Shown: positions 29,086-43,297 of the stretch, piece after piece
How the letters are laid out: each line of letters starts with the position of its first letter
How positions within the stretch are numbered: position 1 is the stretch's first letter
DNA from: Prevotella sp.
Lineage (GTDB): Bacteria; Bacteroidota; Bacteroidia; Bacteroidales; Bacteroidaceae
Direction of reading: 5' to 3'
Assembly: GCA_017941345.1 (NCBI GenBank)
Contig: JAGAWQ010000005.1
Coordinates: forward strand, 1-64,000
Length of the DNA: 64,000 nucleotides
Translations under genes and position numbers: made by a program
The notes under the pieces: generated by a model
The model's database searches: none
Told to the model about the DNA's origin: nothing
What the model saw: the letters and a program-made list of their open reading frames with translations, nothing else

Positions 29086-30813
29086 TTAATAGTTCTTGTT
29101 AGTGTTATCGTTAGAACTGTAACCTGGGTTTTGCCTTAGCGAAGGACAAATATTCAGGTCAGAGAGCGGTATAGGCATATATAGCCTCGGCTCTGTGTTC
29201 ATCTTGGCTGCTACGGCATTGCCCTTGCCTGAGAGCTTACGCTTCATAAGATTCAGCATTTCGTCGTAGACTGCTACAAACGACTGGCCTGATTCGTTCT
29301 GGTCTGCCAGTACGGTCGTATAGTCGACACCTTCCATGTGTCGATAGCTGTATCGCATCAGGTCGTACCATCGCTTGCCTTCGAAGGCCAACTCGCGTAG
29401 GCGCTCAGCAAGGATGAGCTTCTCCATCGTGCTGATGCCGTCGCTGTAGGTGTTCCACTTCAACGAGTCCGACTCCATCTGCTTAGAGCGGAGGTTGACA
29501 AACTTCACCAAGTCGAAGGCAGCGTGCAGGTGAGAGACGTCAGCGTCATCTTCAGCCAGAGCTGTCAAGGCTTCTGCCTTCATCAGCATGATGTCGGAGA
29601 GTCGGTAGACGATATAGTTCATGTCCAGCGTACTGTTGTAGCCTGGGGCAGTACCCACCTGGCTGGGAGCATTCACGTAAGAATCACCGGCTACATATTT
29701 GCGGATGCGGAGTCCGTCGAAATCGCCAACGGTGACCGTAGCACCGGCAGTATTCGTATAGGTGTTGTTCATTGCACGGTAGTCGGTCATAGTACTTCCG
29801 CTGGTATACACCTCACCACCATATTTGAAAATAGAGGAAGCATAGAGGAAGGGTACAGTTGCGTCTTTTCCATCGTTATGGTTGAAGTACTGTGCCACGC
29901 CTACATTGCCATTGGTGCCATACTGGAACTGTAGCTCAAAGATACTCTCTTCGGCATTTTTGCTGATAAAGACGTTGCTGAATGATTGTCTTCCTTCGCT
30001 CAGATAGTAGTCCTTTTCTTCCGTCTCACCACGTTGGCGGATGTGCTGTGACTTTTTGGAGGCGATAATCTTATTGCAGTAGTTTACTGCCTGCTCATAG
30101 TCAGTAGCCTGATGTCTTACGCTGCCCAGCCAGAGGTAGATGTCTGCCTGCAGGGCATTGATGGCATCGCGTGTGAAATAGCCCACGCGTCGCCAGTCGG
30201 TAAAGGCTGAGGCTGAGATGGCATTCTGCTCGGCTTCCTCCAGGTCTACCAGACAGGCCTTCAACACGCTTTCGGGGTCAGACTGAGCCACGTTGCGGTC
30301 TTGGCTGCTGTCGGAGTAGGCATCTGTGATGTATGGTACATCACGGAAGTTGCGTACGAGATAGAAGTAACACAATGAGCGCAATGCCAGCATCTGTGCA
30401 CGGTCTGACATGTAGTCGCCATTGGTGTAGTTGGGGTCTTCACTCATTACGTCACCTGCGCGATGCAATACGAGATTGCAACGGTTGATGACCGCATAGA
30501 TGGAAGCCCATGTGGCAAATGTGTTGTCAACCTGAGTGTTACCTAAGTTAATCTCCTCAAGGTCTTCCTTGACGGTGCCGGTGATGCTGGCAACGGGAAT
30601 GGCTTCTTCTGAGCGCAGGTCGCCCCATACAATCAGTCGTGAGACAACGTCGGCATTCAGCATACGCTGGTAGGCGGCGTTAACCATCAGTTGCACGTCA
30701 GCCTTCGACTTCCAGAAGTCCTCGTCTACGGTCTTGTCATCAGGCAAGATGAGGGTGTCAACGCATGATACCATCATGATGCTGGCGACAATCATATATA
30801 AATATGTCTTCAT
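29086..30813 (-). CDS. susD: SusD-like outer-membrane glycan-binding lipoprotein
   Basis: 575 aa from ATG 30813, which gives a compact lipoprotein signal (MKTYLYMIVASIMMVSC). An in-frame ATG at 30849 overlaps the SusC stop (TGATG) and would add 12 polar residues; it may serve for coupling. RagB/SusD features: FWKSKADVQLMVNAAYQRM, RAQMLALRSLCYFYLVRNFRDVPYI, LSDIMLMKAEALTALAE, RLRELAFEGKRWYDLMRYSYRH and a closing RLYMPIPLSDLNICPSLRQNPGY. It pairs with the SusC immediately upstream. It differs strongly from the other SusD of this operon. Confidence 0.92.
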   Translation of the reverse strand: MKTYLYMIVASIMMVSCVDTLILPDDKTVDEDFWKSKADVQLMVNAAYQRMLNADVVSRLIVWGDLRSEEAIPVASITGTVKEDLEEINLGNTQVDNTFATWASIYAVINRCNLVLHRAGDVMSEDPNYTNGDYMSDRAQMLALRSLCYFYLVRNFRDVPYITDAYSDSSQDRNVAQSDPESVLKACLVDLEEAEQNAISASAFTDWRRVGYFTRDAINALQADIYLWLGSVRHQATDYEQAVNYCNKIIASKKSQHIRQRGETEEKDYYLSEGRQSFSNVFISKNAEESIFELQFQYGTNGNVGVAQYFNHNDGKDATVPFLYASSIFKYGGEVYTSGSTMTDYRAMNNTYTNTAGATVTVGDFDGLRIRKYVAGDSYVNAPSQVGTAPGYNSTLDMNYIVYRLSDIMLMKAEALTALAEDDADVSHLHAAFDLVKFVNLRSKQMESDSLKWNTYSDGISTMEKLILAERLRELAFEGKRWYDLMRYSYRHMEGVDYTTVLADQNESGQSFVAVYDEMLNLMKRKLSGKGNAVAAKMNTEPRLYMPIPLSDLNICPSLRQNPGYSSNDNTNKNY

Positions 30814-30848
30814 AACTCTTAGTTCTAAATTATTATTTCTTGTCTCCA

Positions 30849-33800
30849 TCAGAATCCAACATTGAGAGTAAACGTAAACTGCTTCGAACGCGGAGTCTGC
30901 GAAGCATCGGCAGCCACACCATAGCCCTGTGGGGATACTTCTGGGTCTACGCCGCTATACTTCGTCCAGATATAGAGGTTGTTCAGTGATGCATAGGCCT
31001 GTAGCTGGTTCAGTCCCCACTTGCTAATCATTTTCTTGGGAAAGTTGTAGGTTATCTGCAAGTTCTGGAAACGCACGAAACCACCGTCTTCCACATATCG
31101 GTCGGAGGGCTGGAAGTTGTAAGAGGTGTTGTACATGGCACGTGGAATCGGTGTCATGTCGCCATCCTTACGCCAGCGATAGTTCACTGATGAACATTGG
31201 TTGTACGTATTGTACATCTGCTCCAGGTTCTGGCGGGCCAGGTTCACCACCTTGTTGCCGAATCGGTACATGAAGCGCGTCTTGACGCTCCAGTTGCCAT
31301 AGCGGAAGGTGAAGTTGAAACCACCGTTCACCTTAGGCAGCGAGTTGCCTAAGTAGACGATATCCAGCTCATTGATTTGTCCATCGTGGTTGATATCCTC
31401 ATAGATGGCATCACCACCCTGGAAGGTATATGTTGACGAACCGGTACCGTTGTTGTTCTCGTAGTTGTAGACAAGACGCTTGGGATGTCCCTGACCGTCC
31501 ATCAGCACGTTTCCGTTCTCATCGCGTACTACGGGGAAGGTCTGGCCTGCAGCCAGGCGGTTGTTGATTTCACGCTCGTAGGTGGCGGCATCCCAGTTGT
31601 TCTCCTTCCTCAGGTTCTCCAGATAGTCATAGGTGTATTGGTAGACACCTTTGTAACGGAAACCGTAGATGGAGCCCAGCGAGTTGTTCAGTTGTACGCG
31701 CAAAGGCCAGTTGCCTCGCTGTGTGACAGCCCATGGGGAGCCAGACTTACCTGTGGAGTAATTGGTATAGGTGTTGTTGAGGGCGTCAAGCACGCTCTCA
31801 TCCATCTCCTTCAGCAGGTTCTCGTTTTGTGCGATGTTGAAGCTGGCATCCATCGAGAACTTACCAATCTTGATGAATTTCTTGGCTGTGAAGTTCAGCT
31901 CCCATCCGTCATTGTTCATCTGGCCTACGTTCATGTAAGACAGGGTGCTGTAACCTACATACGACGGAATGGCCACGCTCTGCATCAGCAGGTCTTTGGT
32001 GACCTTGTGGTAGTAGTCGAAGTCTATCTCAATCATGTCGTGCAGAAGACCGATGTTGAAACCGAGGTTCAAACTCGTCGTCTTCTCCCAGCGGAGGTCG
32101 TCGAGCTTCAGGCCGTCGAGTGTTCCGATAGGCTGCAGATTGGTACCGTAGCCATAGTAGCCTGCCGACGTGTTGTACGTGTTGTAGAACAGGTAATTGG
32201 AGCTGGGGGCCTTACCGTTGATACCCCATGAGGCGCGCAGACCCAACATGGAGAGCCAGTTGCCCTTAATCTTCGTAAAGAAAGGCTCGTCGCTGATGTT
32301 GTATCGGGCAGAGATACCGGGGAAGAGCGCCCACTTGTTCTTGGGACCGAACTTAGAGTCACCGTCAGCACGTAGCGAGAATCCTAAGCTATAGAGTCCG
32401 TCCTTATAGGAGATGTGTCCATTGTAGAGCAGGTTCTGCGAAGCGGAACGTGAATTGCTGCTGGTCATCGACTCGTTGTCATACAGCCATGCGAAGATGG
32501 TGGATGCCGTAATGCCCGGAGGCAGCATGCTCATCTCCAGGAACTGCTTGTTGTACTTCTCTGTGCTCATCTCGTAGCGGGCGAGCATGGTAGCCGACCA
32601 GTCTTCGTTCTTGAAGTGCGGAGTGTAGATTAATTCCAAGCGTCCACCCACCTTGAAGCGGTTGACTTCCGTATTGGTAGCATAGTTGTACATCTGGTTA
32701 GACCAGGTGTTGCTGGCCAGTGAGGCGGGGTAGTAGATGGGACGGCTCGAAGCATAGATATCGAAATCCACGCGACCGTTCAGCGTCAGTCGGCTCTTGT
32801 CGGGCTCTGTGCCCAGCAGTTCGTACTTGACACTGAAGTCTGGGGTCAGACGATAGGTCTCTTCACGGTCTTTGGCCAGGTTGGCAATCGCTACGGGGTT
32901 GCCTAAGCCACGGATGGCATTCAGCTCGTAAGAGGAGTAGTTGCCGTCTTTCGGATATTTGCCTGACTCACTGGGGTTCATGATATAGTATTCATCTGTA
33001 TCAGAGCCATCGGCATTCTGGCGATAGATGCTCATGTTGGGAGCCATCTTCTGCGCCAGTCCGAGAATGTTGTTGCCGTAGTTCCTGTTGTTGTTCGTAT
33101 AGGTCAGTGCGAAGTTGGTCGAGAAGCGGATGCGGTCTGACACGTTGTAGTCGAGCACCAGACGCGTGGTGAACTGCTGGAACTTCTGCTTGATGATTGT
33201 ACCTGTCTGGTGCTTGTAACCAGCAGAGATACGGAAGGTGGCCTTCTCACCACCACCCGACAGGTTCAGGTTATAGTCGTGCTGTCCACCGAATTGTGTC
33301 ACAGCACCCACCCAGTCGGTGTTGTTGTTCCAGTTCTCGTATTCTGACCATGCGGTGTTGTAGTTCAGTTCCTCGATGTTCGTGGTGGCATCAGCCTTCT
33401 GAGTGGGGTTGTAGAATGCCTCCTTCATCAACATGGTATAGTCGTCACCGCTCAGCAGGTTATAGCCGCTGGGCTGCCATGTTCCGGTAAACTTATAGGA
33501 GAAGTTCAAACGGGGTTTTCCGCGTGAACCGTGCTTCGTTGTGATGAGCAGCACACCGTTAGAGCCTTTAGAACCCCATACGGCTGTGGCGGCAGCATCC
33601 TTCAGAACGGTGATGCTGGCAATATCCTCCACGTTCACCGACAGCAGCGAGGCGTATTGCTCCTCGTTGGCATTGGCGAAGTCGAAGTCCTCGTCGGGGT
33701 TGTCGAAGATTTTGTCGTCTACGACAATCAGAGGGTTGGCATCACCGGTAATGGTGGTCACACCACGGAGTCGCATTGAGGTACCGGCACCCAGGTTACC

Positions 33801-34292
33801 TGAGTTGGCCACGATGTCAAGTCCGGCAATCTCACCCTGCAGGGCCTCGTCGGCAGAGGTGAAGGCCATACCCTTCACATTGTCGAGGTCGAAGGTCTGC
33901 TGCGAAACGGATACCTCTTTCTTGGAAATCATCAGTCCGCCAGAGTTCGAGCGCTTGGCCTTGATGACCACTTCCTGCAGCTGGGTTCCCTCAGCTTCCA
34001 ATTTGATGTTGAACACTGTGCGGTTACCGATGGGTAAGACTTGAGTCTTGTCTCCAACATACGAGAAGACCAGTTTGTTCTTGGTGCTCTTCACCTGCAT
34101 AGAGAAGTTACCGTTGAAGTCGGTCTGTACGGCCGACACGATACGGTTGTTGGCATCGCGCTCCACAACGTTGGCCATCATAATGGGACCCTCAGCGTCG
34201 GACAGCGTACCCGATATGCGGACACCCTGTGCCATCAGTGGCAGACAGACGATGTCCAGCAGGACCGTAAATAGTATTTTCTTGATAGTCAT
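30849..34292 (-). CDS. susC: SusC-like TonB-dependent outer-membrane transporter
   Basis: 1147 aa from ATG 34292; the frame extends to a GTG at 34313 but the ATG start gives a clean signal peptide (to PLMAQ). Carboxypeptidase-regulatory-like domain (VRISGTLSDAEGPIMMANVVERD), plug with TSMRLRGVTTITGDANPLIVVDDKIF and SITVLKDAAATAVWGSKGSNGVLLITTKHG, then a long barrel ending FTFTLNVGF. With the following SusD it forms an outer-membrane import complex. It is the second gene of the operon, 46 bases after the first FAS1 gene. Confidence 0.93.
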   Translation of the reverse strand: MTIKKILFTVLLDIVCLPLMAQGVRISGTLSDAEGPIMMANVVERDANNRIVSAVQTDFNGNFSMQVKSTKNKLVFSYVGDKTQVLPIGNRTVFNIKLEAEGTQLQEVVIKAKRSNSGGLMISKKEVSVSQQTFDLDNVKGMAFTSADEALQGEIAGLDIVANSGNLGAGTSMRLRGVTTITGDANPLIVVDDKIFDNPDEDFDFANANEEQYASLLSVNVEDIASITVLKDAAATAVWGSKGSNGVLLITTKHGSRGKPRLNFSYKFTGTWQPSGYNLLSGDDYTMLMKEAFYNPTQKADATTNIEELNYNTAWSEYENWNNNTDWVGAVTQFGGQHDYNLNLSGGGEKATFRISAGYKHQTGTIIKQKFQQFTTRLVLDYNVSDRIRFSTNFALTYTNNNRNYGNNILGLAQKMAPNMSIYRQNADGSDTDEYYIMNPSESGKYPKDGNYSSYELNAIRGLGNPVAIANLAKDREETYRLTPDFSVKYELLGTEPDKSRLTLNGRVDFDIYASSRPIYYPASLASNTWSNQMYNYATNTEVNRFKVGGRLELIYTPHFKNEDWSATMLARYEMSTEKYNKQFLEMSMLPPGITASTIFAWLYDNESMTSSNSRSASQNLLYNGHISYKDGLYSLGFSLRADGDSKFGPKNKWALFPGISARYNISDEPFFTKIKGNWLSMLGLRASWGINGKAPSSNYLFYNTYNTSAGYYGYGTNLQPIGTLDGLKLDDLRWEKTTSLNLGFNIGLLHDMIEIDFDYYHKVTKDLLMQSVAIPSYVGYSTLSYMNVGQMNNDGWELNFTAKKFIKIGKFSMDASFNIAQNENLLKEMDESVLDALNNTYTNYSTGKSGSPWAVTQRGNWPLRVQLNNSLGSIYGFRYKGVYQYTYDYLENLRKENNWDAATYEREINNRLAAGQTFPVVRDENGNVLMDGQGHPKRLVYNYENNNGTGSSTYTFQGGDAIYEDINHDGQINELDIVYLGNSLPKVNGGFNFTFRYGNWSVKTRFMYRFGNKVVNLARQNLEQMYNTYNQCSSVNYRWRKDGDMTPIPRAMYNTSYNFQPSDRYVEDGGFVRFQNLQITYNFPKKMISKWGLNQLQAYASLNNLYIWTKYSGVDPEVSPQGYGVAADASQTPRSKQFTFTLNVGF

Positions 34293-34338
34293 ATCTATAG
34301 GATATATTTTCACTTTTTACTTTTGTTCTTCTCGCATA

Positions 34339-37092
34339 TTACTGACCTGAGTCAAGTGCCTCGGAGAGTTCATGAATCACGCAGAATGACGACGTGTAGA
34401 TGGCTGTGGCCTGCGTACGGGATCTGTTGAACCAGTAGTCACGTGTCATCAGGTTGCTCAGCTTGGAAGAGTCGTTGGCATTGATGGTGTGCGTCTTGCC
34501 AGCACCGTCTGTGACGGTCAGCGTACCGTTGCCGCCGCTGACACGCAGCTCGAGAGCCAGACCGAGGTTGTCGGTACACAGGCTGTTGAAACGACCGCCA
34601 GCTACAACATTGTCGGCATATACCGAATTGCTCTGGAAGTGATAGTGGGTAAAGTCGCGCATCTTGTTAATCATGTCCTTGGCTTTCTTCTTGGCTGCCT
34701 CTGCAGCAGAGCCTTCTTCCGTAGCGTATGCTTCATAAAGTTTCTGGACTTGTTCCCAAGTGGGAAGTCCTGCCTCGTAGGCCTTCTTCATGGCATCGTT
34801 GTTGGGGGCATAGAGCGTGTAATTATAGGTGTTGAACATCTTCACGTTGTAGTCAAGACATCCGTGACCGTCCTTGTCCTGGTTCTGGAAGATGATATAG
34901 GCATCCTGCTCGGTAGTACCGAAATCATTCTTCTCGCTGCTGATGCCTGCCCACTCCAGCAAGTCGCTGTCACCGAATCCTGAGCAGAGGTCATAGAATT
35001 CTGAGAAGCGGCTGTTGCTCTCCAGTGTCTTGCTGACACTGTTTCGCGGAGCCTGGATGACATGGTCGATACGGTAGGCCGTACCGTTCTTCTCGCTATA
35101 TACGTTCTTGATGGTCGGTGCTGTCAAGCCGTTGTCTATCTGCTGACCGCTCATCACCTTGTCGCCAACGTTACCGCCGCTGACCATGATTTCACCACCA
35201 TGTTTCGTCTTGTAATACTTGTTGGTGCCCAGCTTCTCGCCGTCTTCCAGCACTACGGTATGGTAGTTGAGAATGTCGACCATCAGCGACTGCCACTGGG
35301 CAAACTCTACGTTACCACCGCCGTTGAGTATTTCACCAACGGTATTCGTCTCAGGATAGTATCTGTAAGCTTTGGCATGTACGGTAGCTTTCGAGCCTGT
35401 CGTGTCGTAGAAGAATTTAAGTACACGTGGCTCGGCGTGTCCCAGATAGCAGGGGTCTACATAGTAGTTCTCAAAGGCTGCACTGTCGGGGATGAAGAAG
35501 GCAAAGTTGGAACTCATGGACATCAGGTAGTATCTGAACTGCACATTGAGTGGCTGTTGGGAGTCTGGCTCCTTGATGGCCCAGTTGAATACCTTCATGT
35601 CAGGATATACCGACGAAGGAGCCATGACGCTCTGGTACTCGTCGGGGGCTATCAGCTCCAGCATCTTGTAGATGACGCCGTTGTTGGCCATCTTGATGTC
35701 GTATTCCTTCTCAGTGCCTTTGGCTATCTTGTCAAGGGTGATGCCCATATACTCGTTGGCATCGTTCTGTATGGTCTCAAACTTGCTGGGTACGGTAGCG
35801 GTGAATGACGACTTCATCAGGTTGTTGATGAAGGCGGTGAGGATTTCCGGCATCGTGTTATGCAGGGCGTCCAGATTCTCTAACAGGTGAGCCTCGTTGT
35901 TCGCGCTGCCATGGTATTTACCGTAGAGGTCGATGAGGTATGCACCGTCGCCACCCTCGCAGAAGAAGTCGACCATAGCCTTGTTGGTAGGCACGAACAT
36001 CGTAGCGACGTCGGCCAGCGTGTAGTCAACAGGTGATGTCTGGCTGTTGGGGCTGTATTGGTTCCATCCCGGGTCGTAGTTCAGCAGGTAGGTGCTGCTG
36101 ACGATGTTGCCGTCGGGGTCGGTATTCTGTCGGTGGCCTGCCTTGTTGTTCAGGTAGCGCACCTCATAGATGTGGTCGATAGTTGGCCTGCCGTTCTCCT
36201 GTGCCCAGGCATTATAGTTGTTGGTTACCGTGGTATTCTCGTAGGGAGCGCAGAAATAGTCGAGGATGTGACTGAAGTAGGTGGTCTCGTTATCGCTGCG
36301 CAGCACCTGTGCCATATTGCCCGGAGGCACGATGACATCCTCCATCTGGTGGATATATCCGTTTTGGCAGGTGATGTCTCTGTTGATAATGGCATTGTCA
36401 AAGATATAAGCCGAGAGGTCCTCGCTGTAGGGCGTGCCGGTCAGGATGGCAAAGTCGCTCTCGTCACCCAGTGTCGTGATGTCGTTGTTCAACAGGTGCT
36501 CACGGGTGAAGTGTACCATCATGGGACGCGTAGCATCGCTCACCACGTACATGTTGCCCTGAGAGCGGTAGGCATCCCAGTAGCGGTTGTTCTGTGGCAT
36601 CTGGTCAGCACTTGTCAGGCACTGCACCGTGTCGATGACGTTCAGGTTGGTCTGGTGTTTCATGGCAATACCTTGCGACACCTGACTTTCGGTGCTGCTG
36701 GTATTGCTGACGTTGGAGAGCATGCTCACCAATAGGGCATTGTCGAGCATCGAAGAGTAAAGCAACATCTTCTTCTGGGCGTTCGAGAGCTGCTCATAGC
36801 TCGTGACTCCCCAAGAATTGGACTGGAAAAACCTCTGGAATGCCTCGTCGTTAGCAGGGAAAACGGTCTTTGAACCTGTACGGTTGAGCGTCTCGGAATA
36901 GCCGAGGTCGTCAATCAGCCGCAGATAGGTGTTGAATGTTCCCTCCAAGGTTCTGGGGTTCTTCAGTTCCTGATAGATGCTTTCACCAAGCCAGTCGGGC
37001 TTGCTGTCTTCATCCACTGCCTGGTTCTTTTCCACACAAGCAGTCATCAGTCCCGTTAAAGCGAGAGAGATACAGAAAATGAATTTTTTCAT
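34339..37092 (-). CDS. Multi-domain FAS1 (fasciclin) lipoprotein
   Basis: 917 aa, first gene of the FAS1/Sus operon. Lipobox LMTAC (Cys about 19). Several fasciclin modules can be followed: TFNTYLRLIDDLGYSETLNRTGSKTVFPANDEAFQRFF with CQNGYIHQMEDVIVPP; DVATMFVPTNKAMVDFF with NGVIYKMLELIAP; SNFAFFIPDSAAFENY; and YNYTLYAPNNDAMKKAYEAG near the end. Roughly three to four modules make it the largest of the three FAS1 proteins here. Being first, it should be the most abundant transcript of the operon, consistent with a structural surface role. Ligand and mechanism are unknown; the FAS1 call is firm, function is inference. Confidence 0.82.
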   Translation of the reverse strand: MKKFIFCISLALTGLMTACVEKNQAVDEDSKPDWLGESIYQELKNPRTLEGTFNTYLRLIDDLGYSETLNRTGSKTVFPANDEAFQRFFQSNSWGVTSYEQLSNAQKKMLLYSSMLDNALLVSMLSNVSNTSSTESQVSQGIAMKHQTNLNVIDTVQCLTSADQMPQNNRYWDAYRSQGNMYVVSDATRPMMVHFTREHLLNNDITTLGDESDFAILTGTPYSEDLSAYIFDNAIINRDITCQNGYIHQMEDVIVPPGNMAQVLRSDNETTYFSHILDYFCAPYENTTVTNNYNAWAQENGRPTIDHIYEVRYLNNKAGHRQNTDPDGNIVSSTYLLNYDPGWNQYSPNSQTSPVDYTLADVATMFVPTNKAMVDFFCEGGDGAYLIDLYGKYHGSANNEAHLLENLDALHNTMPEILTAFINNLMKSSFTATVPSKFETIQNDANEYMGITLDKIAKGTEKEYDIKMANNGVIYKMLELIAPDEYQSVMAPSSVYPDMKVFNWAIKEPDSQQPLNVQFRYYLMSMSSNFAFFIPDSAAFENYYVDPCYLGHAEPRVLKFFYDTTGSKATVHAKAYRYYPETNTVGEILNGGGNVEFAQWQSLMVDILNYHTVVLEDGEKLGTNKYYKTKHGGEIMVSGGNVGDKVMSGQQIDNGLTAPTIKNVYSEKNGTAYRIDHVIQAPRNSVSKTLESNSRFSEFYDLCSGFGDSDLLEWAGISSEKNDFGTTEQDAYIIFQNQDKDGHGCLDYNVKMFNTYNYTLYAPNNDAMKKAYEAGLPTWEQVQKLYEAYATEEGSAAEAAKKKAKDMINKMRDFTHYHFQSNSVYADNVVAGGRFNSLCTDNLGLALELRVSGGNGTLTVTDGAGKTHTINANDSSKLSNLMTRDYWFNRSRTQATAIYTSSFCVIHELSEALDSGQ

Positions 37093-37153
37093 AAATAGCT
37101 ATTTGTTAATAATTTGATTAGTTCCAAAAGACATTTTAGTAGCTTTAACCGTG

Positions 37154-37161
37154 CAAAGGTA
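37154..37161 (-). promoter_or_regulatory. -7 promoter element of the FAS1/Sus operon
   Basis: TACCTTTG on the minus strand, 62 bases before the first FAS1 ATG at 37092, with TTG about 16 bases upstream. No other good promoter is seen down to 19908, supporting a single seven-gene operon. Confidence 0.65.
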
Positions 37162-37253
37162 TGCAAAAAAAGTGAAACAAGAAAATAAATAACTGAAAAT
37201 TTATTAATAGGATGCAAAATAACCTATAAATGATTAATATCAAATGAATACAG

Positions 37254-37302
37254 CAGTCCCCCTGTACCACGACGGGTACAGGGGGACTGTCAGTTTTTTT
37301 TT
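37254..37302. terminator. Strong hairpin after left phase-variable lipoprotein
   Basis: Perfect 15-bp arms (37254-37268 and 37275-37289, CAGTCCCCCTGTACC type) with a 6-base loop. The T tract (about 37294-37302) is on the plus-strand side, so for the minus-strand lipoprotein gene it is a hairpin preceded, not followed, by the A/T run. It probably still limits read-through into the FAS1 promoter region. Confidence 0.6.
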
Positions 37303-37311
37303 AGAAGGGAT

Positions 37312-39045
37312 TTACTCAGCAGCAGGCTTGGTGACCTTCAGACAGTCGTAGCCGATTCCGTTTAATGTGGTCTCGTTAACAAACTTCAACTTGGCACCAG
37401 CGGGGATGGTGACACCTGCGAAGGTGAACCAGCCCATGCCGGCATTTCCATAAGACTCAGGAGAAGAAGCAACTTCCACCTTGGTCTCGGTGCCGTCAGC
37501 AGCAACGATGTAAGGCGTTACAGATGTTGATGTAGTCTTACTGTCATTACGGACATAAAGTGCGATATCGTAGGTGCCAGCGGTAGAAATAGCATCCTTT
37601 GTAGTCATGCTTGTACCGGCATTCAGACGGATGTGCTTACCCTGAGATACACGGTTGAATGTGCCCCATGAGAATCCATTTTCGAACCCACCGACAATCT
37701 CCATGTCCTCGCAGTCAGCGAAGTAAACCATGTTCTCGTCCAAAGAATAATTGATGGTGGTAAGGATGTAACCCTGCGTCTTAGCCTCAGTGCCGTTGAC
37801 AGCAGCTGTCTTACCGTTATACTGGGCGGGAGCAGTAGTGTAGCACTTTCCATTTTTGTAGTAACCGATAGGCAGGTAAACGGTAGTCGTCTTGCCTTCG
37901 AATTCCTCACCTCTAATCTGGGCAAGGATAGCGTCAGCACCTGTAGCACCCTCAATCATGCAGTTGAAGATATACTGATACTTGGGAACCACTTCACTCT
38001 TATAGACAATCTTAATCTGAGTGCCTTCTGCGGTAATGGTAGCACCCTCAGAGTTGTCTGACTGATAGGTGTATTTTATAGAACCGTCAGCATTGCTGAA
38101 GTCAGCCTTGTCAGCATCCAGCAGTGTGATGGCATCGCCTACCTTTCCACGACGGGTAATAGTGGTCTTCAAGTCCTCGGGGATGGCATTGCCCTCGGTA
38201 TCAACATAGCTGATGGTGTAGTCGGCATATTCAACATTGGGGTCACCTGAAGTCTTGGTGATTTTAACATTGTCAATCTTATATGTACCAGAGTAGCCGA
38301 CATAAAGAGACAATTGGGTGAAGGACTGAACATTTTCGCTAACGAAAGCTACATCTTCGCCTTCCCACCATATCTCATTGCCTTTGCTGATGGCATAGTT
38401 TACAGTCTTGTTGGTGATATCGATTTCAAAATCTGCATGGAACCAATTGCCCCATACATCAGCTGCGAGATGTTCCTCCTGGCTGGCAGCAGCGGGAACT
38501 CCATTGATTTGGAAGTAATTCTCGTTACTTTTGCCATAAGCCTTGCCGCGGAAAGCACCCATATAGAAAATGGCGCCATTGGTGCCAAAGCCATACTGAC
38601 CAGAGGTGGTGTTAAATCCACCATTTGTAGCGTTGTGAACATTGGCGTCACCCAGTGAAATGGCACTCTGACCAAGAATCTCAGCAGGAATCATGAAGTC
38701 AAAAGCAACTTTTGCCTTGGTAGCGTCCTCTAACTCTGGCATCTTAAGAGCAGCGAAGCCAAAGCCGCTTGAACCAGAACGTACGAACTGAGCCACCTTA
38801 GAGCCAGCAGCCTCGTCTTCCACTACTGATGCAGCCAGTTTTGATGCGTCAGCAACTTCAAATTTAGTAAGGTCGTCCTCGTTCTCGAAATTAGCTTCCG
38901 TTGAGGAGTTGGTGCTATAATTACCCCAACCAGAATCAGGATCGTTCCAAGGTGTAGGATAGTCTTGTTTAGCACAAGATGTGAAAGCCATGCCGCAAGT
39001 CAGCGCAGCAGCAAGCGTCCAAATAAAACTTTTTTTCATAGACAT
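37312..39045 (-). CDS. Surface lipoprotein, left variant of an invertible pair
   Basis: 577 aa. Lipoprotein signal with lipobox FTSC (Cys about 25), then YPTPWNDPDSGW. Residues about 50-270 are a variable beta-rich, LamG-like domain. Residues about 272-350 (YTISYVDTEGNAIPEDLKTTI...) resemble a MucBP-type repeat. Next is a domain nearly identical to that of its paralogue (YIFNCMIEGATGADAILAQIRGEEF). The C-terminal 110 residues are a variable carbohydrate-binding-module-like sandwich. Its start region matches that of the gene at 40406 in inverted orientation. A consensus promoter inside the adjacent invertible segment reads into it through a leader of about 120 bases, so this is the variant predicted to be ON in the present orientation. 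Probable surface glycan-binding protein; no enzyme motif. ATG 39039 is an equally possible start. Confidence 0.8.
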   Translation of the reverse strand: MSMKKSFIWTLAAALTCGMAFTSCAKQDYPTPWNDPDSGWGNYSTNSSTEANFENEDDLTKFEVADASKLAASVVEDEAAGSKVAQFVRSGSSGFGFAALKMPELEDATKAKVAFDFMIPAEILGQSAISLGDANVHNATNGGFNTTSGQYGFGTNGAIFYMGAFRGKAYGKSNENYFQINGVPAAASQEEHLAADVWGNWFHADFEIDITNKTVNYAISKGNEIWWEGEDVAFVSENVQSFTQLSLYVGYSGTYKIDNVKITKTSGDPNVEYADYTISYVDTEGNAIPEDLKTTITRRGKVGDAITLLDADKADFSNADGSIKYTYQSDNSEGATITAEGTQIKIVYKSEVVPKYQYIFNCMIEGATGADAILAQIRGEEFEGKTTTVYLPIGYYKNGKCYTTAPAQYNGKTAAVNGTEAKTQGYILTTINYSLDENMVYFADCEDMEIVGGFENGFSWGTFNRVSQGKHIRLNAGTSMTTKDAISTAGTYDIALYVRNDSKTTSTSVTPYIVAADGTETKVEVASSPESYGNAGMGWFTFAGVTIPAGAKLKFVNETTLNGIGYDCLKVTKPAAE

Positions 39046-39079
39046 TTTTAATTAGTTATAGTTAATATTGATAGTAAAT
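38905..39079. repeat. Left arm of long inverted repeat (leader plus signal peptide)
   Basis: About 175 bases covering the last 34 bases of leader and the first codons of the left lipoprotein match 40372-40546 in inverted orientation with about five mismatches. The arms lie outside the 27-bp recombination repeats and keep leader and secretion signal the same for both variants. Confidence 0.85.
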
Positions 39080-39121
39080 ACCTTATTTATATTATATATA
39101 GGGCTGTTTTATACTCATTGC

Positions 39122-39148
39122 GTGCATAGTTGGCGGCCAACAGTGTAC
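39122..39148. repeat. Left 27-bp inverted repeat, putative recombinase site
   Basis: It is identical, as reverse complement, to 40304-40330 over 27 of 27 bases. It contains an internal dyad GTTGGC-G-GCCAAC with a single centre base, typical of paired binding sites of a tyrosine recombinase. Confidence 0.85.
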
Positions 39149-39169
39149 ATCCAAGCCCATAAAACGATA

Positions 39170-39177
39170 CAAAGGTA
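39170..39177 (-). promoter_or_regulatory. Promoter element inside the invertible segment
   Basis: TACCTTTG on the minus strand, 22 bases inside the left 27-bp repeat, reading outward to the lipoprotein at 39045. Upstream is GTGTTT about 17-20 bases away rather than a perfect TTTG. The mirror position at the right edge has only AATTTTTG, a poor match. Confidence 0.7.
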
Positions 39178-39312
39178 AGTTAATTTTTAATAAACACATC
39201 CTTTTTTCTGAATATTTCCTGCGATTTTTAGATTTTTTAATGTTTGAACCCTTTTATGTAACTATTCACTCCTCTCATTTATTAGGCACGGATTCCACGG
39301 ATTTCACGGATT

Positions 39313-40233
39313 TTAGATTTGCAAAGTGCAGAATGATTGTAGTTTGTCCATGTCGGCAGAAAGCTTCTCCGTAGTAATACGGGCATAGATTTGTGTGGTA
39401 GAGATATTGCTGTGACCAAGGATGCGGCTAATACTCTCGATGGGCATACCGGCACAGAGAGAAGCGATAGCGAACGAGTGGCGTGCACAATGGAAGGAAA
39501 TATGCTTCTGAATTCCACAGGCTTTGACGATTAGCGGAATATGTTTGGCAACAGTCCTGTAGCAGAGAGAACCGAAGATGGGGTCGCTGCCCTCTCTGTA
39601 GGTGTTGAGTATACGTAGTGCCGTAGGCAACAGCCGCACCACGTAAGGTGTGTGGGTTTTCTGACGAAGGGCAGATATCCAGACTTGTTCGTTAATCGTA
39701 TGGATATCTGAGGCTTTCAGACTACAGATATCGGCAAAGGCTATTCCCGTCAGTGCGGAAAACACAAAGATGTCGCGATGACGAGCCATCAGCGGACTGG
39801 CAAGCGGCAGACTGGCAACCTGTTGCAGTTCTTGCCAATTAAGATATTGACGTGGACGAATCATTTTCTTGGCATGGTATTCATAGAAGGGATTGCTGGA
39901 AATGAGTCCCCTCTGGAAAGCCCTTGATACTGTGCTCTTCAATTGTTGGCATGTCAGCCAAATGGTTCCTGGGCGGTAATGTCGGCTAATGCTTAGCCAC
40001 GAGGCAAAGTCACGGATAAAACATGGGACGAGCGTTGCAAGTGGTACATCGTCAACCTGCATGGTTTTATGGATGAAGTCAGCCACGACATTGCGTATCT
40101 GCAACTGTCTGACGTAAGTGTTTAAGGTGCGGTCAATACCTATACGTTGTTGAAGTGTCATAAGGTCGTTGTCGAATACTTCAAGCAGTGTAGCACCCTT
40201 TTGAGGTCTTTTCTTTTCAGGATTCTTTGTCAT
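39313..40233 (-). CDS. Tyrosine recombinase (invertase) of the flip-flop cassette
   Basis: 306 aa from ATG 40233; the frame opens upstream with a TTG at 40287. A SAM-like N-terminal core-binding domain (LNTYVRQLQIRNVVADFIHKT...RPGTIWLTCQQLKSTVSRAFQRGLI) is followed by a catalytic domain with SALTGIAFADICSLKASDI, HISFHCARHSFAIASLCAGMPIESISRILGHSNISTTQIYARI. The H-x-x-R box, the second His (LGHSN) and the nucleophile Tyr (QIYARI) are present. The usual first catalytic Arg is replaced by Ala (TGIAFADI instead of TGLR), as occurs in some Bacteroidota integrases such as IntDOT, where Ser occupies that place. It has no Xis, tra or cargo genes beside it and lies entirely within the 27-bp inverted repeats, so a site-specific invertase is more likely than a conjugative-element integrase. 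Confidence 0.88.
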   Translation of the reverse strand: MTKNPEKKRPQKGATLLEVFDNDLMTLQQRIGIDRTLNTYVRQLQIRNVVADFIHKTMQVDDVPLATLVPCFIRDFASWLSISRHYRPGTIWLTCQQLKSTVSRAFQRGLISSNPFYEYHAKKMIRPRQYLNWQELQQVASLPLASPLMARHRDIFVFSALTGIAFADICSLKASDIHTINEQVWISALRQKTHTPYVVRLLPTALRILNTYREGSDPIFGSLCYRTVAKHIPLIVKACGIQKHISFHCARHSFAIASLCAGMPIESISRILGHSNISTTQIYARITTEKLSADMDKLQSFCTLQI

Positions 40234-40303
40234 AATTGTTGTTGTTTTGTCATTAAATGTTTTTTTCCTTATTTTAATTTTTGGCAAGTTTTATCCATCA
40301 ATG

Positions 40304-40330
40304 GTACACTGTTGGCCGCCAACTATGCAC
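40304..40330. repeat. Right 27-bp inverted repeat, putative recombinase site
   Basis: Exact reverse complement of 39122-39148, with central dyad GTTGGC-C-GCCAAC. The bases immediately inside it carry no consensus outward promoter, in contrast to the left side. Confidence 0.85.
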
Positions 40331-40371
40331 ACAACGAGTGTAAAAGAGTCCTTTAATATAATATAAAAAGG

Positions 40372-40546
40372 ATTTACTATCAATATTAACTATAACTAAT
40401 TAAAAATGTCTATGAAAAAAAGTTTTATTTGGACGCTTGCTGCTGCGCTGACTTGCAGCATGGCTTTCACATCTTGTGCTAAACAAGACTATCCTACACC
40501 TTGGAACGATCCTGATTCTGGTTGGGATAATTATAGTACTAACTCC
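40372..40546. repeat. Right arm of long inverted repeat (leader plus signal peptide)
   Basis: Counterpart of 38905-39079: same leader bases (ATTTACTATCAATATTAACT onward) and the same codons through YSTNSST, with about five mismatches in 175 bases. Confidence 0.85.
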
Positions 40547-42202
40547 TCAACGGTGATTGATTTCGAGGATGAGGACGACCTTTCCAAGTTTACAGTTGCT
40601 GACGCATCAAAGATGACGACATCAATAGTGGAAGACGAGACTACCGGCTCTAAGGTAGCACAATTCGTACGTTCTGGTTCCAGCGGCTTAGGCTTAGCTA
40701 CACTGAATTTCTCAGAACAAACTGAAGATGCTACAACAGTCAAAGTGGCTTTTGACTTTAACATTAAGAACTATATTCAAGGTGCAAGTGGCATCGCCAT
40801 CGGTGACGCAGCCGTAAATACGAAGGATTTGGGTGGTTTCTCTGATGGTCAGTGGGGCTTTGGAGCCAACGGTGTGATTATGTATTTTGGCGGCGGACGT
40901 AGCCGTATTGTTCCTGGAAGCACTACCAACTATGATTATTTCCAGATTAACGGAGTATGTGTCGCTGCACCAGAAGACGATGCTGTAAAGGCTGTAGCTG
41001 AACCGACATGGAATCGTTTCACAACAGAGATTTGGGACAATTGGCTGCACTTTGAAGCTGATGTTGATGTTGCTAATCAAACAGTATCATATACCATTAA
41101 TAAAGGTGATGAAGTATTATATGCAGGGAATGACATTCCATTTGTTAGCGACCAAGCTCTTACTTGCACACAATTAAGTTTCCATTCTGGAAATGCAGCG
41201 ACCGTTTTGTTTGATAACATCAACATCACCACGACTTCTGGTGATGCCAGCATCCAGTATGCCGACTACACCATCAGCTATGTTGACACCGAGGGCAATG
41301 CCATCCCAGAGGACTTGAAGACCACTATCACCCGTCGCGGCCGGATTGGCTCTGCCGTCACACTGTTGGATGCTGACAAGGCCAACTTCTCCAATGCTGA
41401 TGGTTCTGTAAAGTACATCTATCAGTCAGACAACACTGAGGGTGCTACCATTACCAAAGAAGGCACTCAGATAAAGATTGTATATAAGAGTGAAGAGGCT
41501 CCCAAGTACCAATACATCTTCAACTGCATGATTGAGGGTGCTACAGGTGCAGACGCTATCCTTGCCCAGATTAGAGGTGAGGAATTCGAAGGAAAGGCGA
41601 CTACCGTTTACCTGCCCATCGGTTACTACAAGGACGGAAAGTGCTACATGACTACTCCCGCCCAGTACAATGGTAGGACAGTTTCTGTCAACGGTACAGA
41701 GGCTAAGACCCAGGGATATATCCTTACTACTATCAACTATGCGCTGGACGAGAGCATCGTTTATTTTGGTGAATGTGAGGACCTCCAGCAGGAGGGCGAA
41801 TTCGCCGAGGGATACCATTTCGGATACTTCGATCGAGTTTCTCAAGGAAAGACAATTATTCCAAAGACTAATGCTGCCCTTACTACTCCGGTTATTACAG
41901 CAGGAACGTATGATGTCAATATTTTCTGTCGTAGTGACAAAGGTGAAGTCCATGTTGACATGCTCTACGTAAAGTTGGCAGATGGAACACTTCAGAAAGT
42001 TGAGGCATTGCCAGACTTCGTAGAATATACTAAAATGAAATTCCATGAAAGTATGGCAACGCTTTGGAATGCTGGTATGGGTTGGCTTACCTTTAAGAGT
42101 GTAACTATTCCCGAAGGTGCTTCATTGGTCATCAAGAACGAAACAACAGAAAGTGCTCTTGCCTTCGACTGCATAAAAGTCACCAAGATTGCTGCTGAGT
42201 AA
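40406..42202 (+). CDS. Surface lipoprotein, right variant of an invertible pair
   Basis: 598 aa paralogue of the left lipoprotein, in opposite orientation. The signal peptide and first 49 residues are almost the same (lipobox FTSC, YPTPWNDPDSGW). Residues about 50-280 diverge strongly. The MucBP-like and following domains (YADYTISYVDTEGNAIPEDLK...GATGADAILAQIRGEEFEGK) are again nearly identical. The C-terminal module differs (AGTYDVNIFCRSDKGEVHVDMLYVKLADG). This mosaic pattern, conserved frame with variable ligand-facing modules, fits antigenic or ligand variation. In the present orientation no consensus promoter reads into it, so it is predicted to be OFF or weakly expressed until the adjacent segment inverts. 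A strong terminator follows. Confidence 0.8.
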   Translation: MSMKKSFIWTLAAALTCSMAFTSCAKQDYPTPWNDPDSGWDNYSTNSSTVIDFEDEDDLSKFTVADASKMTTSIVEDETTGSKVAQFVRSGSSGLGLATLNFSEQTEDATTVKVAFDFNIKNYIQGASGIAIGDAAVNTKDLGGFSDGQWGFGANGVIMYFGGGRSRIVPGSTTNYDYFQINGVCVAAPEDDAVKAVAEPTWNRFTTEIWDNWLHFEADVDVANQTVSYTINKGDEVLYAGNDIPFVSDQALTCTQLSFHSGNAATVLFDNINITTTSGDASIQYADYTISYVDTEGNAIPEDLKTTITRRGRIGSAVTLLDADKANFSNADGSVKYIYQSDNTEGATITKEGTQIKIVYKSEEAPKYQYIFNCMIEGATGADAILAQIRGEEFEGKATTVYLPIGYYKDGKCYMTTPAQYNGRTVSVNGTEAKTQGYILTTINYALDESIVYFGECEDLQQEGEFAEGYHFGYFDRVSQGKTIIPKTNAALTTPVITAGTYDVNIFCRSDKGEVHVDMLYVKLADGTLQKVEALPDFVEYTKMKFHESMATLWNAGMGWLTFKSVTIPEGASLVIKNETTESALAFDCIKVTKIAAE

Positions 42203-42229
42203 AACATCTGCTTAGAAACAGAATCAACG

Positions 42230-42264
42230 AAGCCCTCCTGTGCCGCTGTGGCGCAGGAGGGCTT
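42230..42264 (+). terminator. Terminator after right phase-variable lipoprotein
   Basis: 15-bp arms (42230-42244 and 42250-42264; AAGCCCTCCTG type, one G-U pair) with a 5-base loop, followed by TTATTG, 27 bases after the stop. Confidence 0.8.
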
Positions 42265-42273
42265 TATTGTGAC

Positions 42274-42336
42274 ACTCCGTAAGTAATGATAATTACTCCG
42301 TAAATAATAAAAATTATTCCGTAAGTTTTGAAAATT
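42274..42336. repeat. 21-bp tandem repeat, three copies
   Basis: Units at 42274, 42295 and 42316 share A(C/T)TCCGTAA followed by an AT-rich tail ending in AATT. It lies between the terminators of the right lipoprotein and the glycosyltransferase. Confidence 0.85.
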
Positions 42337-42350
42337 ATGTTCGAAGAAAC

Positions 42351-42376
42351 AGCGGAGGGCTGTTGGGCTCTCCGCT
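42351..42376 (-). terminator. Hairpin after glycosyltransferase gene
   Basis: 10-bp arms (AGCGGAGGGC and GCTCTCCGCT, one wobble pair) with a 6-base loop, 6 bases beyond the minus-strand stop codon; only a weak T run follows (GTTTCTTC). Confidence 0.55.
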
Positions 42377-42381
42377 AAAAA

Positions 42382-43230
42382 TCAGGCATTCCTTGCAGTT
42401 TCAACCAAGGTACGTAGCTGTTCTTTCTTTCCTGCTAACAATTGATAGAGTAGTTTGCCATTACGCTCAGCCTGTTCGTTGGTGAAGGCGGTGTTCCAAA
42501 GGCGCATGCCGCCTGCTGTCAGGCTGCGGAATCCGGCATCATACCAACCCACCTGCAGGCCGGAAAGCCACGTGCGGGCACAGAGTTCGTAGTCGTCGAA
42601 CTGGAAGGGGGCAAAGCGGAAGTCGATATGGTGCAGGTGCTGTTCGTAAAGTGTTTTGTTAATCCACATCGGGGCGCGGTTGACCGAGGTGACATAGCAG
42701 AAATCGCCTTCTGCTTGCGAGGGACCGCCATGTGCCCACTGACGGTCTTCTTCAAATGCAATCTCCAGCCCGTCTTTCCCCCCAAGTATAGCCATTTGGG
42801 GATGCTCTTCAAACAATCTGACAGCTCGCTCTACCCAGTTCGTGCCGTCGAAATCGTCATCGTCCTGCATCAGGGCGATATACTTGCCGTTGGCCAGCCG
42901 GATGGCCTTGTCGTAAGTGACGTTCTCAAACAGGTCGTTGGCTCTCAGCAGAAACTCGTTGGCTCCTGTCAGCGCTGCGACCAGCCGTTCTGTATGCTCC
43001 TTGTCGGAACCGTCGTCAATGACGATAATCTCCGCATCGCCATACTGCCGTAGCTTGGGCAGGACGTGGCATACCTGTAGGCTCTTGTTGTGCGACTGAA
43101 TGATAAACGTCACGGTAGGCTCGTTCCGGTAGCCTTTATCCACCCATGACTGATGGTCTTTTTTCTTCTGCGAAGTGCCTGAACGCTTCAGCAATGCTAA
43201 CTTTATTTTTTCAAGAAATAGTCTCATCAT
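42382..43230 (-). CDS. Family 2 glycosyltransferase
   Basis: 282 aa from ATG 43230 (ATG 43227 equally possible); the longer frame would run through the promoter. GT-A fold: PTVTFIIQSHNKSLQVCHVLPKL, EIIVIDDGSDKEHTERLV, NGKYIALMQDDDDFDGTNWVERAV. The acidic DDDD is the metal/nucleotide-sugar site. GGPSQAEGDFCYVTSVNRAPMWI and DDYELCARTWLSGLQVGWYDAGF form the acceptor half. No membrane segment, so it acts at the cytoplasmic face. With the divergent second glycosyltransferase, a flippase and an acyltransferase it suggests a small surface-glycan (O-antigen or capsule-like) cluster. The sugar transferred is unknown. Confidence 0.85.
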   Translation of the reverse strand: MMRLFLEKIKLALLKRSGTSQKKKDHQSWVDKGYRNEPTVTFIIQSHNKSLQVCHVLPKLRQYGDAEIIVIDDGSDKEHTERLVAALTGANEFLLRANDLFENVTYDKAIRLANGKYIALMQDDDDFDGTNWVERAVRLFEEHPQMAILGGKDGLEIAFEEDRQWAHGGPSQAEGDFCYVTSVNRAPMWINKTLYEQHLHHIDFRFAPFQFDDYELCARTWLSGLQVGWYDAGFRSLTAGGMRLWNTAFTNEQAERNGKLLYQLLAGKKEQLRTLVETARNA

Positions 43231-43241
43231 ACTCTTATTTT

Positions 43242-43297
43242 GTGCAAAAATACGAAGAATTGTGCTAAGTTCAAAATTATTCTTCGTATTTTTGCAC
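43242..43297. promoter_or_regulatory. Dyad-symmetric divergent promoter region of two glycosyltransferases
   Basis: Perfect 19-bp inverted arms (43242-43260 and 43279-43297) with an 18-base centre. Each arm contains a TATTTTTG -7 element pointing outward: minus strand at 43245-43252 for the left gene and plus strand at 43287-43294 for the right gene. The predicted transcript starts are only about 10-20 bases from the start codons. Confidence 0.7.

Follow-up and report, generated by a model that had tools for sequence, protein, structure and literature searches.

Within a 64,000-nucleotide stretch of a Prevotella sp. assembly (GCA_017941345.1, contig JAGAWQ010000005.1, positions 1 to 64,000; hereafter the window), two paralogous genes for predicted lipoproteins, A and B, stand head to head on either side of a 1,155-bp segment (Table 1). 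The window is part of contig C163 in a 2.05-Mb bin that is 60% complete. The segment is bounded by perfect 27-bp inverted repeats and encodes an intact tyrosine recombinase, and a single outward promoter match at its left edge points toward gene A. These elements had been described in a first-pass annotation of the stretch and were all borne out: proteins A and B are 62% identical (BLASTP), the recombinase matches PF00589, and TACCTTTG is the sole match to TANNTTTG at either edge of the segment, the right edge carrying the poor match AATTTTTG alone. Taken together with a comparison of related genomes, these features suggest that the locus is very probably a self-contained either/or inversion switch, in which the internal recombinase would flip the segment so that the promoter drives either A or B.

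Table 1. Features of the predicted switch locus and its borders (window coordinates)
Feature	Position	Strand	Remark
Hairpin after gene A, strong, 16 pairs	37253..37290		T-rich tail on plus strand
Gene A, predicted lipoprotein, 577 amino acids	37312..39045	-	Faced by promoter match in assembled orientation
Gene A leader, outside segment	39046..39121	-	Resembles gene B leader
Left inverted repeat, predicted recombination site, core GTTGGCGGCCAAC	39122..39148		Core common to L080, L081, L155
Predicted invertible segment, 1,155 bp	39149..40303
TACCTTTG, match to -7 consensus TAnnTTTG	39170..39177	-	Faces gene A
Tyrosine recombinase, ATG form, 306 amino acids	39313..40233	-	Currently on same strand as gene A
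Right inverted repeat, predicted recombination site	40304..40330
Gene B leader	40331..40405	+	No TAnnTTTG match here or at right edge of segment
Gene B, predicted lipoprotein, 598 amino acids	40406..42202	+	Faced by no promoter match as assembled
Hairpin after gene B, 20-nt arms, 85% complementary	42225..42269		Possible transcript end; not listed by terminator scan

The recombinase scored 74 bits against PF00589 (cut-off 27) and 32 bits against PF13102 in a domain search that used a 307-residue translation, one codon longer than the ATG form. His249, Arg252, His275 and Tyr284 (307-residue numbering), which we take to be the catalytic residues, were invariant in all seven recombinases aligned. 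Ala or Ser stands where the classic motif would have its first catalytic Arg, as is usual for IntDOT-like enzymes. By its domain and predicted active site, the protein belongs to the tyrosine recombinases.

TAnnTTTG is the -7 promoter consensus of the Bacteroidota, and the promoter referred to here is a match to this consensus, not a mapped start. Lying between the inverted repeats, this predicted promoter gives the locus the arrangement of an inverton. A scan for sigma-70-type promoters returned 20 sites compared to a mean of 10.8 in shuffled sequences, including some in the leaders that point into the segment; it was not used because this phylum usually relies on a different consensus. The first-pass annotation also held that both variants keep the same leader and signal peptide. 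This holds only approximately: 29 of the first 30 residues of A and B are identical, and the leaders resemble each other without being the same. In both proteins Cys24 lies in a lipobox-like FTSC. Its further statement, that the recombinase is always directed toward whichever gene is in use, follows automatically from recombinase and promoter sharing one segment. What is not automatic is the placement of the two relative to each other, which was constant across related loci (see below).

The 27-bp repeat sits within a larger inverted duplication, with an additional 75-bp perfect stretch (39005-39079 and 40372-40446) that spans the leader and signal sequence of A and B. Similarity between the two sides drops in the outer leader, is 27/27 at the repeat and ends there; the 60 nucleotides inside the two window sites align only with many gaps. 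Because of the larger duplication, the 27-bp repeat alone is no proof of a recombination site. We therefore compared other species, and it is the conservation of the site core among them that carries the proof.

A class profile was built from an alignment of seven recombinases, the window's and six near relatives, and run on 398 genomes of the genus, with up to five candidates scored per genome. The top 13 loci, in 12 genomes, scored at least 440 bits and had open frames of 296-355 amino acids; one further class locus is truncated by a contig edge (genome G302, 423 bits over 251 positions). The next score below the class was 425 bits, and frames there were mostly about 400 amino acids or more, some being 314-361. 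A draw from the family (301 genomes, 30 genera) gave the window's own locus alone above 440 bits and 406-amino-acid integrases of up to 439 bits, some from the same genus. The gap seen in the 398 genomes is closed by this second draw, and the class was therefore defined by profile rank and layout rather than by a score gap. Since the genus searches sampled a larger group and candidates per genome were limited, class counts are lower bounds. In the protein database, 252 relatives were found at E 1e-70, and the 120 matches listed span 293-346 amino acids and include one that its source labels Prevotella sp. A search of 119 genomes for relatives returned the window's own locus, the known one of G035, and that of G710, which is no cassette. 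Viral contigs held 30 loci at 37-42% identity to the recombinase. A search of genome contigs with the recombinase gave seven loci, all at most 35% identical, which were not used.

Among the 14 best-matching recombinase loci of the 398 genomes (window included; others given L numbers), 11 have head-to-head paralogues on both sides. Four of these are pairs of exported proteins (window, L080, L081, L155) and seven are SusC-type pairs (L082, L084, L086, L151, L152, L154, L157), each followed by a SusD-type gene; that gene is so labelled from its position and a weak similarity, only part of it is present in L154, and in L152 it is split. L156 stops at the recombinase, and L085 is a shorter copy of L157. 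Some segments hold extra genes: L155 encodes an AAA-ATPase/PDDEXK protein, L080 a DUF6169 protein, and L157 has three reading frames. L154 (contig C20 of G392) lies on a 9.4-kb palindromic contig whose two sides encode nearly identical SusC proteins; this may reflect a duplication of very recent date or the misassembly of an invertible locus. The first-pass annotation had taken the system as one locus; it is instead a member of a family of loci.

As a control, 20 loci below the class together with L087-L089 were put through the same script as the 13 class relatives (the window was not rerun). L238 had no recombinase frame and was left out. Head-to-head paralogues were found at none of the 22 testable next-best recombinases compared to 10 of the 13 class relatives, and inverted repeats of at least 16 bp around the recombinase at 0/22 compared to 11/13. 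Fifteen of the 22 control loci had at least 4.9 kb on both sides, and seven (L232-L234, L236, L239, L241 and L242) had less than 2 kb on one side. The control result supports the either/or reading of the locus.

The site core GTTGGCSGSCAAC was present at both ends of all four exported-protein cassettes. The cargo of the window gave no BLASTP match at E 1e-5 to the 910-979-amino-acid cargo of L080, L081 and L155. In the exported-protein set the site tracks the recombinase group and not the cargo, because the core is common to all four while the window cargo is unrelated to that of the other three. Five SusC-type cassettes (L082, L084, L086, L151, L157) have a different core, CTTAAGTATT, with ATACTTAAGTATT in L084, L086 and L157; the site core of L152 is ATACTTAACGGTTAAGTAT and the L154 site is something else. 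With a longer, degenerate site pattern and one mismatch allowed in 10 chosen genomes, an inverted pair was found in the four carriers, at the cassette only, and nothing was found in the other six. Single matches outside the cassette numbered three in the window's own genome, G000, and four in G392. The exact 16-base site matched in seven of 396 genus genomes: the carriers G000, G129 and G392, and four others with one match each, all four inside reading frames. Carrier G170 had no exact match and was matched by the degenerate pattern only. Viral contigs gave 0 matches to the site pattern. In L084 and L157 the ATACTTAAGTATG site extends into the SusC start codon, and inversion there would therefore keep the translation start unchanged.

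An outward TAnnTTTG match lies between the C-terminal end of the recombinase and the nearby site in 11/11 two-sided loci. On the N-terminal side a match was found in two of the 11, namely L081 and L154, and in L154 it sits within the repeat. This side preference gave a Fisher p of 0.0002; without the doubtful L154 it was 10/10 compared to 1/10 (p 0.0001), values that are only a guide because the loci are related. L153 follows the same rule. In that locus a promoter match faces SusC and a second site was looked for but not found, which resembles a locked switch. In L082, L084, L151 and L157, leaders of about 200 nucleotides share a conserved stretch, CCATTGCGGGTCCYAGGGGCTTGGCRTGGAAGGRG, between promoter match and site, a candidate for either an RNA element of the leader or a leader peptide. 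Rfam gave no match at the gathering score in nine relatives, these leaders among them.

All four exported-protein cassettes adjoin a fasciclin-domain gene. In the window, SusC- and SusD-like genes then follow, the three running in the same direction beside the cassette (29086-37092). Relatives of the window's fasciclin-domain and SusC-like genes occur together in L072 and L073. There, one window-type lipoprotein gene and one large-cargo gene lie adjacent by the same fasciclin gene, with no recombinase at that place; the large gene is just 26-29% identical to that of L155. This arrangement is plausibly an unswitched form.

The first-pass annotation had proposed comparing related genomes for both orientations, and opposite orientations were indeed found at matching loci, between species. 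In the window, L080 and L081 the recombinase is directed toward the fasciclin gene; in L155 it is directed away from that gene. Likewise, L084 and L157 have one SusC/SusD-type set in common (79% and 75% identical), which is faced by the promoter match in L157 and unfaced in L084; their other sets are not clear orthologues. Both orientations thus exist, which does not by itself show switching within a population, because the differing loci come from different species.

We next consider the recombinase tree (22 rows). Eight of 10 mobile-element loci passed the motif filter and were included, and L081, L153 and L156 entered as pieces. The recombinases of the window, L080, L081 and L155 form one group (support 98/96), and the eight mobile rows form another (100/100) with the window outside it. 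The tree is unrooted, and midpoint rooting places the mobile group within the cassette set; the tree therefore does not show a single origin of all cassettes.

Three other explanations of the locus were weighed. In a static inverted duplication, the repeat would be a remnant and the recombinase an integrated passenger. The 75-bp perfect inverted stretch outside the 27-bp repeat fits this, as do A and B, in which near-identical parts are mixed with divergent ones, a pattern that duplication and gene conversion would leave. We nevertheless regard it as unlikely, since similarity falls in the outer leader, is back to 27/27 at the site and stops there, and since four species have the site core in common though the window cargo is unlike that of the other three. 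The promoter match on one side of the recombinase in all 11 loci, the presence of both orientations between species and the complete lack of such gene pairs around the 22 next-best recombinases also argue against it. Alternatively, the segment might be inverted by RecA between the long repeats or by a recombinase encoded elsewhere. The outer repeats measure at least 75 bp, a length sufficient for homologous recombination; in addition, the available excerpts of PMC4747536 describe master invertases of Bacteroides fragilis that act at distant loci. Inversion of this kind is nonetheless very improbable, given that each of the four cassettes sharing this core contains a recombinase of one supported group (albeit with a premature stop in L081), that the longest perfect repeat between the L155 genes is 19 bp, and that the closest other recombinase in the window's own genome shows 30% identity, over part of its length (in a bin 60% complete).

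That an ordinary mobile-element integrase inserted between two surface genes is hardly credible, even though integrases of about 406 amino acids reach 439 bits against 440 for the lowest cassette member and midpoint rooting puts the mobile set inside the cassette set. Head-to-head paralogues flank 11/14 class loci and 0/22 next-best recombinases, none of which has flanking inverted repeats of at least 16 bp, and the mobile rows form their own fully supported group without the window. Moreover, the window's segment ends in inverted repeats and contains no other reading frame of at least 80 amino acids, although the domain scan covered five window proteins only. Static duplication, inversion by RecA only and a mobile integrase were all rejected on these grounds.

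Several observations weigh against an inversion switch. Part of the identity of the repeats may be due to ancestry, given the larger inverted duplication. The promoter side rule is broken by L083, no TAnnTTTG match lies ahead of the window recombinase itself, and L083 and L153 have SusC on one side only. Score and length alone do not mark the class, as the integrases just mentioned come within one bit of its lowest cassette member and a 314-amino-acid relative in G388 is no cassette. The recombinases of L081 and L153 contain a premature stop codon, TAG (L081 about 5863-6817; L153 frame 6518-7306). Finally, the orientation differences are between species and not strains, with one genome per species and a 60%-complete bin, while L086 and L152 (the same pair) agree in state, as do L082 and L156. 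On balance, the either/or design claimed by the first-pass annotation is backed at sequence level by the conserved site of the relatives, the promoter side, the contrast in head-to-head paralogues between class loci and controls, and the opposite orientations.

Under the favoured either/or switch, the segment would be inverted by its own tyrosine recombinase at the paired repeats. We infer that the enzyme acts at the paired site with the GTTGGCSGSCAAC core because this core goes with its clade. The promoter match faces gene A in the assembled orientation; after inversion, transcription from this promoter would cross the same site and a similar leader to reach gene B.

Lipoprotein A was modelled from an alignment of the two window proteins and 49 of 72 proteins found. 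The model (mean predicted local distance difference test score 87, predicted template modelling score 0.55) has a lectin-like fold at about residues 47-267 and a CBM6-like fold at about 438-575. A stalk at residues 268-445 comprises a MucBP-like and a second stalk domain, the MucBP match scoring 21.3 bits, under the 23-bit cut-off. Identity between A and B is 96% in the signal and 83-87% in the stalk, falling to 53% in the lectin-like and 47% in the C-terminal part. A and B are predicted surface lipoproteins with two sugar-binding-type domains; a shared fold does not itself show a ligand. Switching between them might change the glycan held, or the surface shown to phages or host defences. No further copy of either lipoprotein was found in the 60%-complete bin.

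At the borders of the locus, the hairpin after gene A is unproven as a terminator of that gene, because its T-rich tail is on the plus strand. Three tandem 21-bp repeats lie behind gene B at 42274-42336. Between two divergent genes, a perfect 19-bp inverted repeat with an 18-bp gap (43242-43297) has TAnnTTTG matches around it; the gene to its left encodes a family 2 glycosyltransferase, and the right gene is similar by eye. Rfam gave no match in window positions 37000-42500 at E up to 1.

Hin is a serine recombinase of the DNA-invertase family, and the Hin segment contains a promoter. The window enzyme is a tyrosine recombinase, and the predicted switch would therefore be similar to Hin in working but not a member of its family. 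The likeness lies in the recombinase gene inside the invertible segment, of which Hin is an example in the excerpts available of PMC5903667. The window locus has a second paralogue at the other end of its segment, whereas the second Salmonella flagellin is regulated by way of the repression of another gene (PMC11868660, excerpts). For the phase-variable S-layer protein BT1927 of Bacteroides thetaiotaomicron, the accessible part of PMC12548429 describes inverted repeats around a promoter that turn one gene ON or OFF. The window locus likewise combines a surface protein with a putative invertible promoter, but would serve one of two paralogues in each orientation.

In B. fragilis, invertases choose outer-membrane proteins at the Tsr0667 SusC/SusD shufflon and at the Tsr19/BF2766 promoters, BF2766 being a tyrosine recombinase, as far as the text of PMC4747536 available to us goes. 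Those master enzymes act on several regions, some distant, with multiple inversions, whereas in the window a single recombinase lies inside a single segment with two predicted outcomes. In a SusC/SusD shufflon, multiple inversions bring coding parts into one expressed site. The window differs in having one site pair, with both coding regions whole and outside it. The sapA system of Campylobacter fetus has an invertible promoter segment between S-layer genes and makes an either/or choice; its segment is not known to contain a recombinase gene. The window locus resembles it in that choice and, going by this general description, differs in the location of the recombinase. The Bacteroides systems in the sources at hand, BT1927 and IVp-I/IVp-II, turn a gene or operon ON and OFF or shuffle many segments under a master enzyme. 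We found no description of a two-paralogue cassette with an internal tyrosine recombinase in the open-access papers searched, including the available parts of PMC12632263 and PMC11892184; bioRxiv and most subscription papers fell outside this scope. Judged from sequence, the variant appears to be novel in pairing a tyrosine recombinase inside the segment with a paralogue at each end, and to be a family rather than a lone curiosity.

The family may extend further, to a portable switch cartridge in which a lineage of short recombinases, with promoter and paired site, would have been fitted repeatedly between duplicated surface genes (lectin lipoproteins, large exported proteins and SusC/SusD-type receptors), each pair becoming a self-contained two-state selector in which exactly one member is always expressed. 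We consider the chances of this to be about even; they are lowered by a score gap confined to one draw and by a tree that shows no single origin. If the either/or switch is real, one compact module would impose an obligatory choice between two variants, and its short recognisable site would let sequence by itself serve to check which recombinase goes with which target. It would also be a compact candidate for a two-output DNA switch in laboratory Bacteroidota. Together, the same recombinase group with different cargo in different species may show how phase switches are built and re-used.

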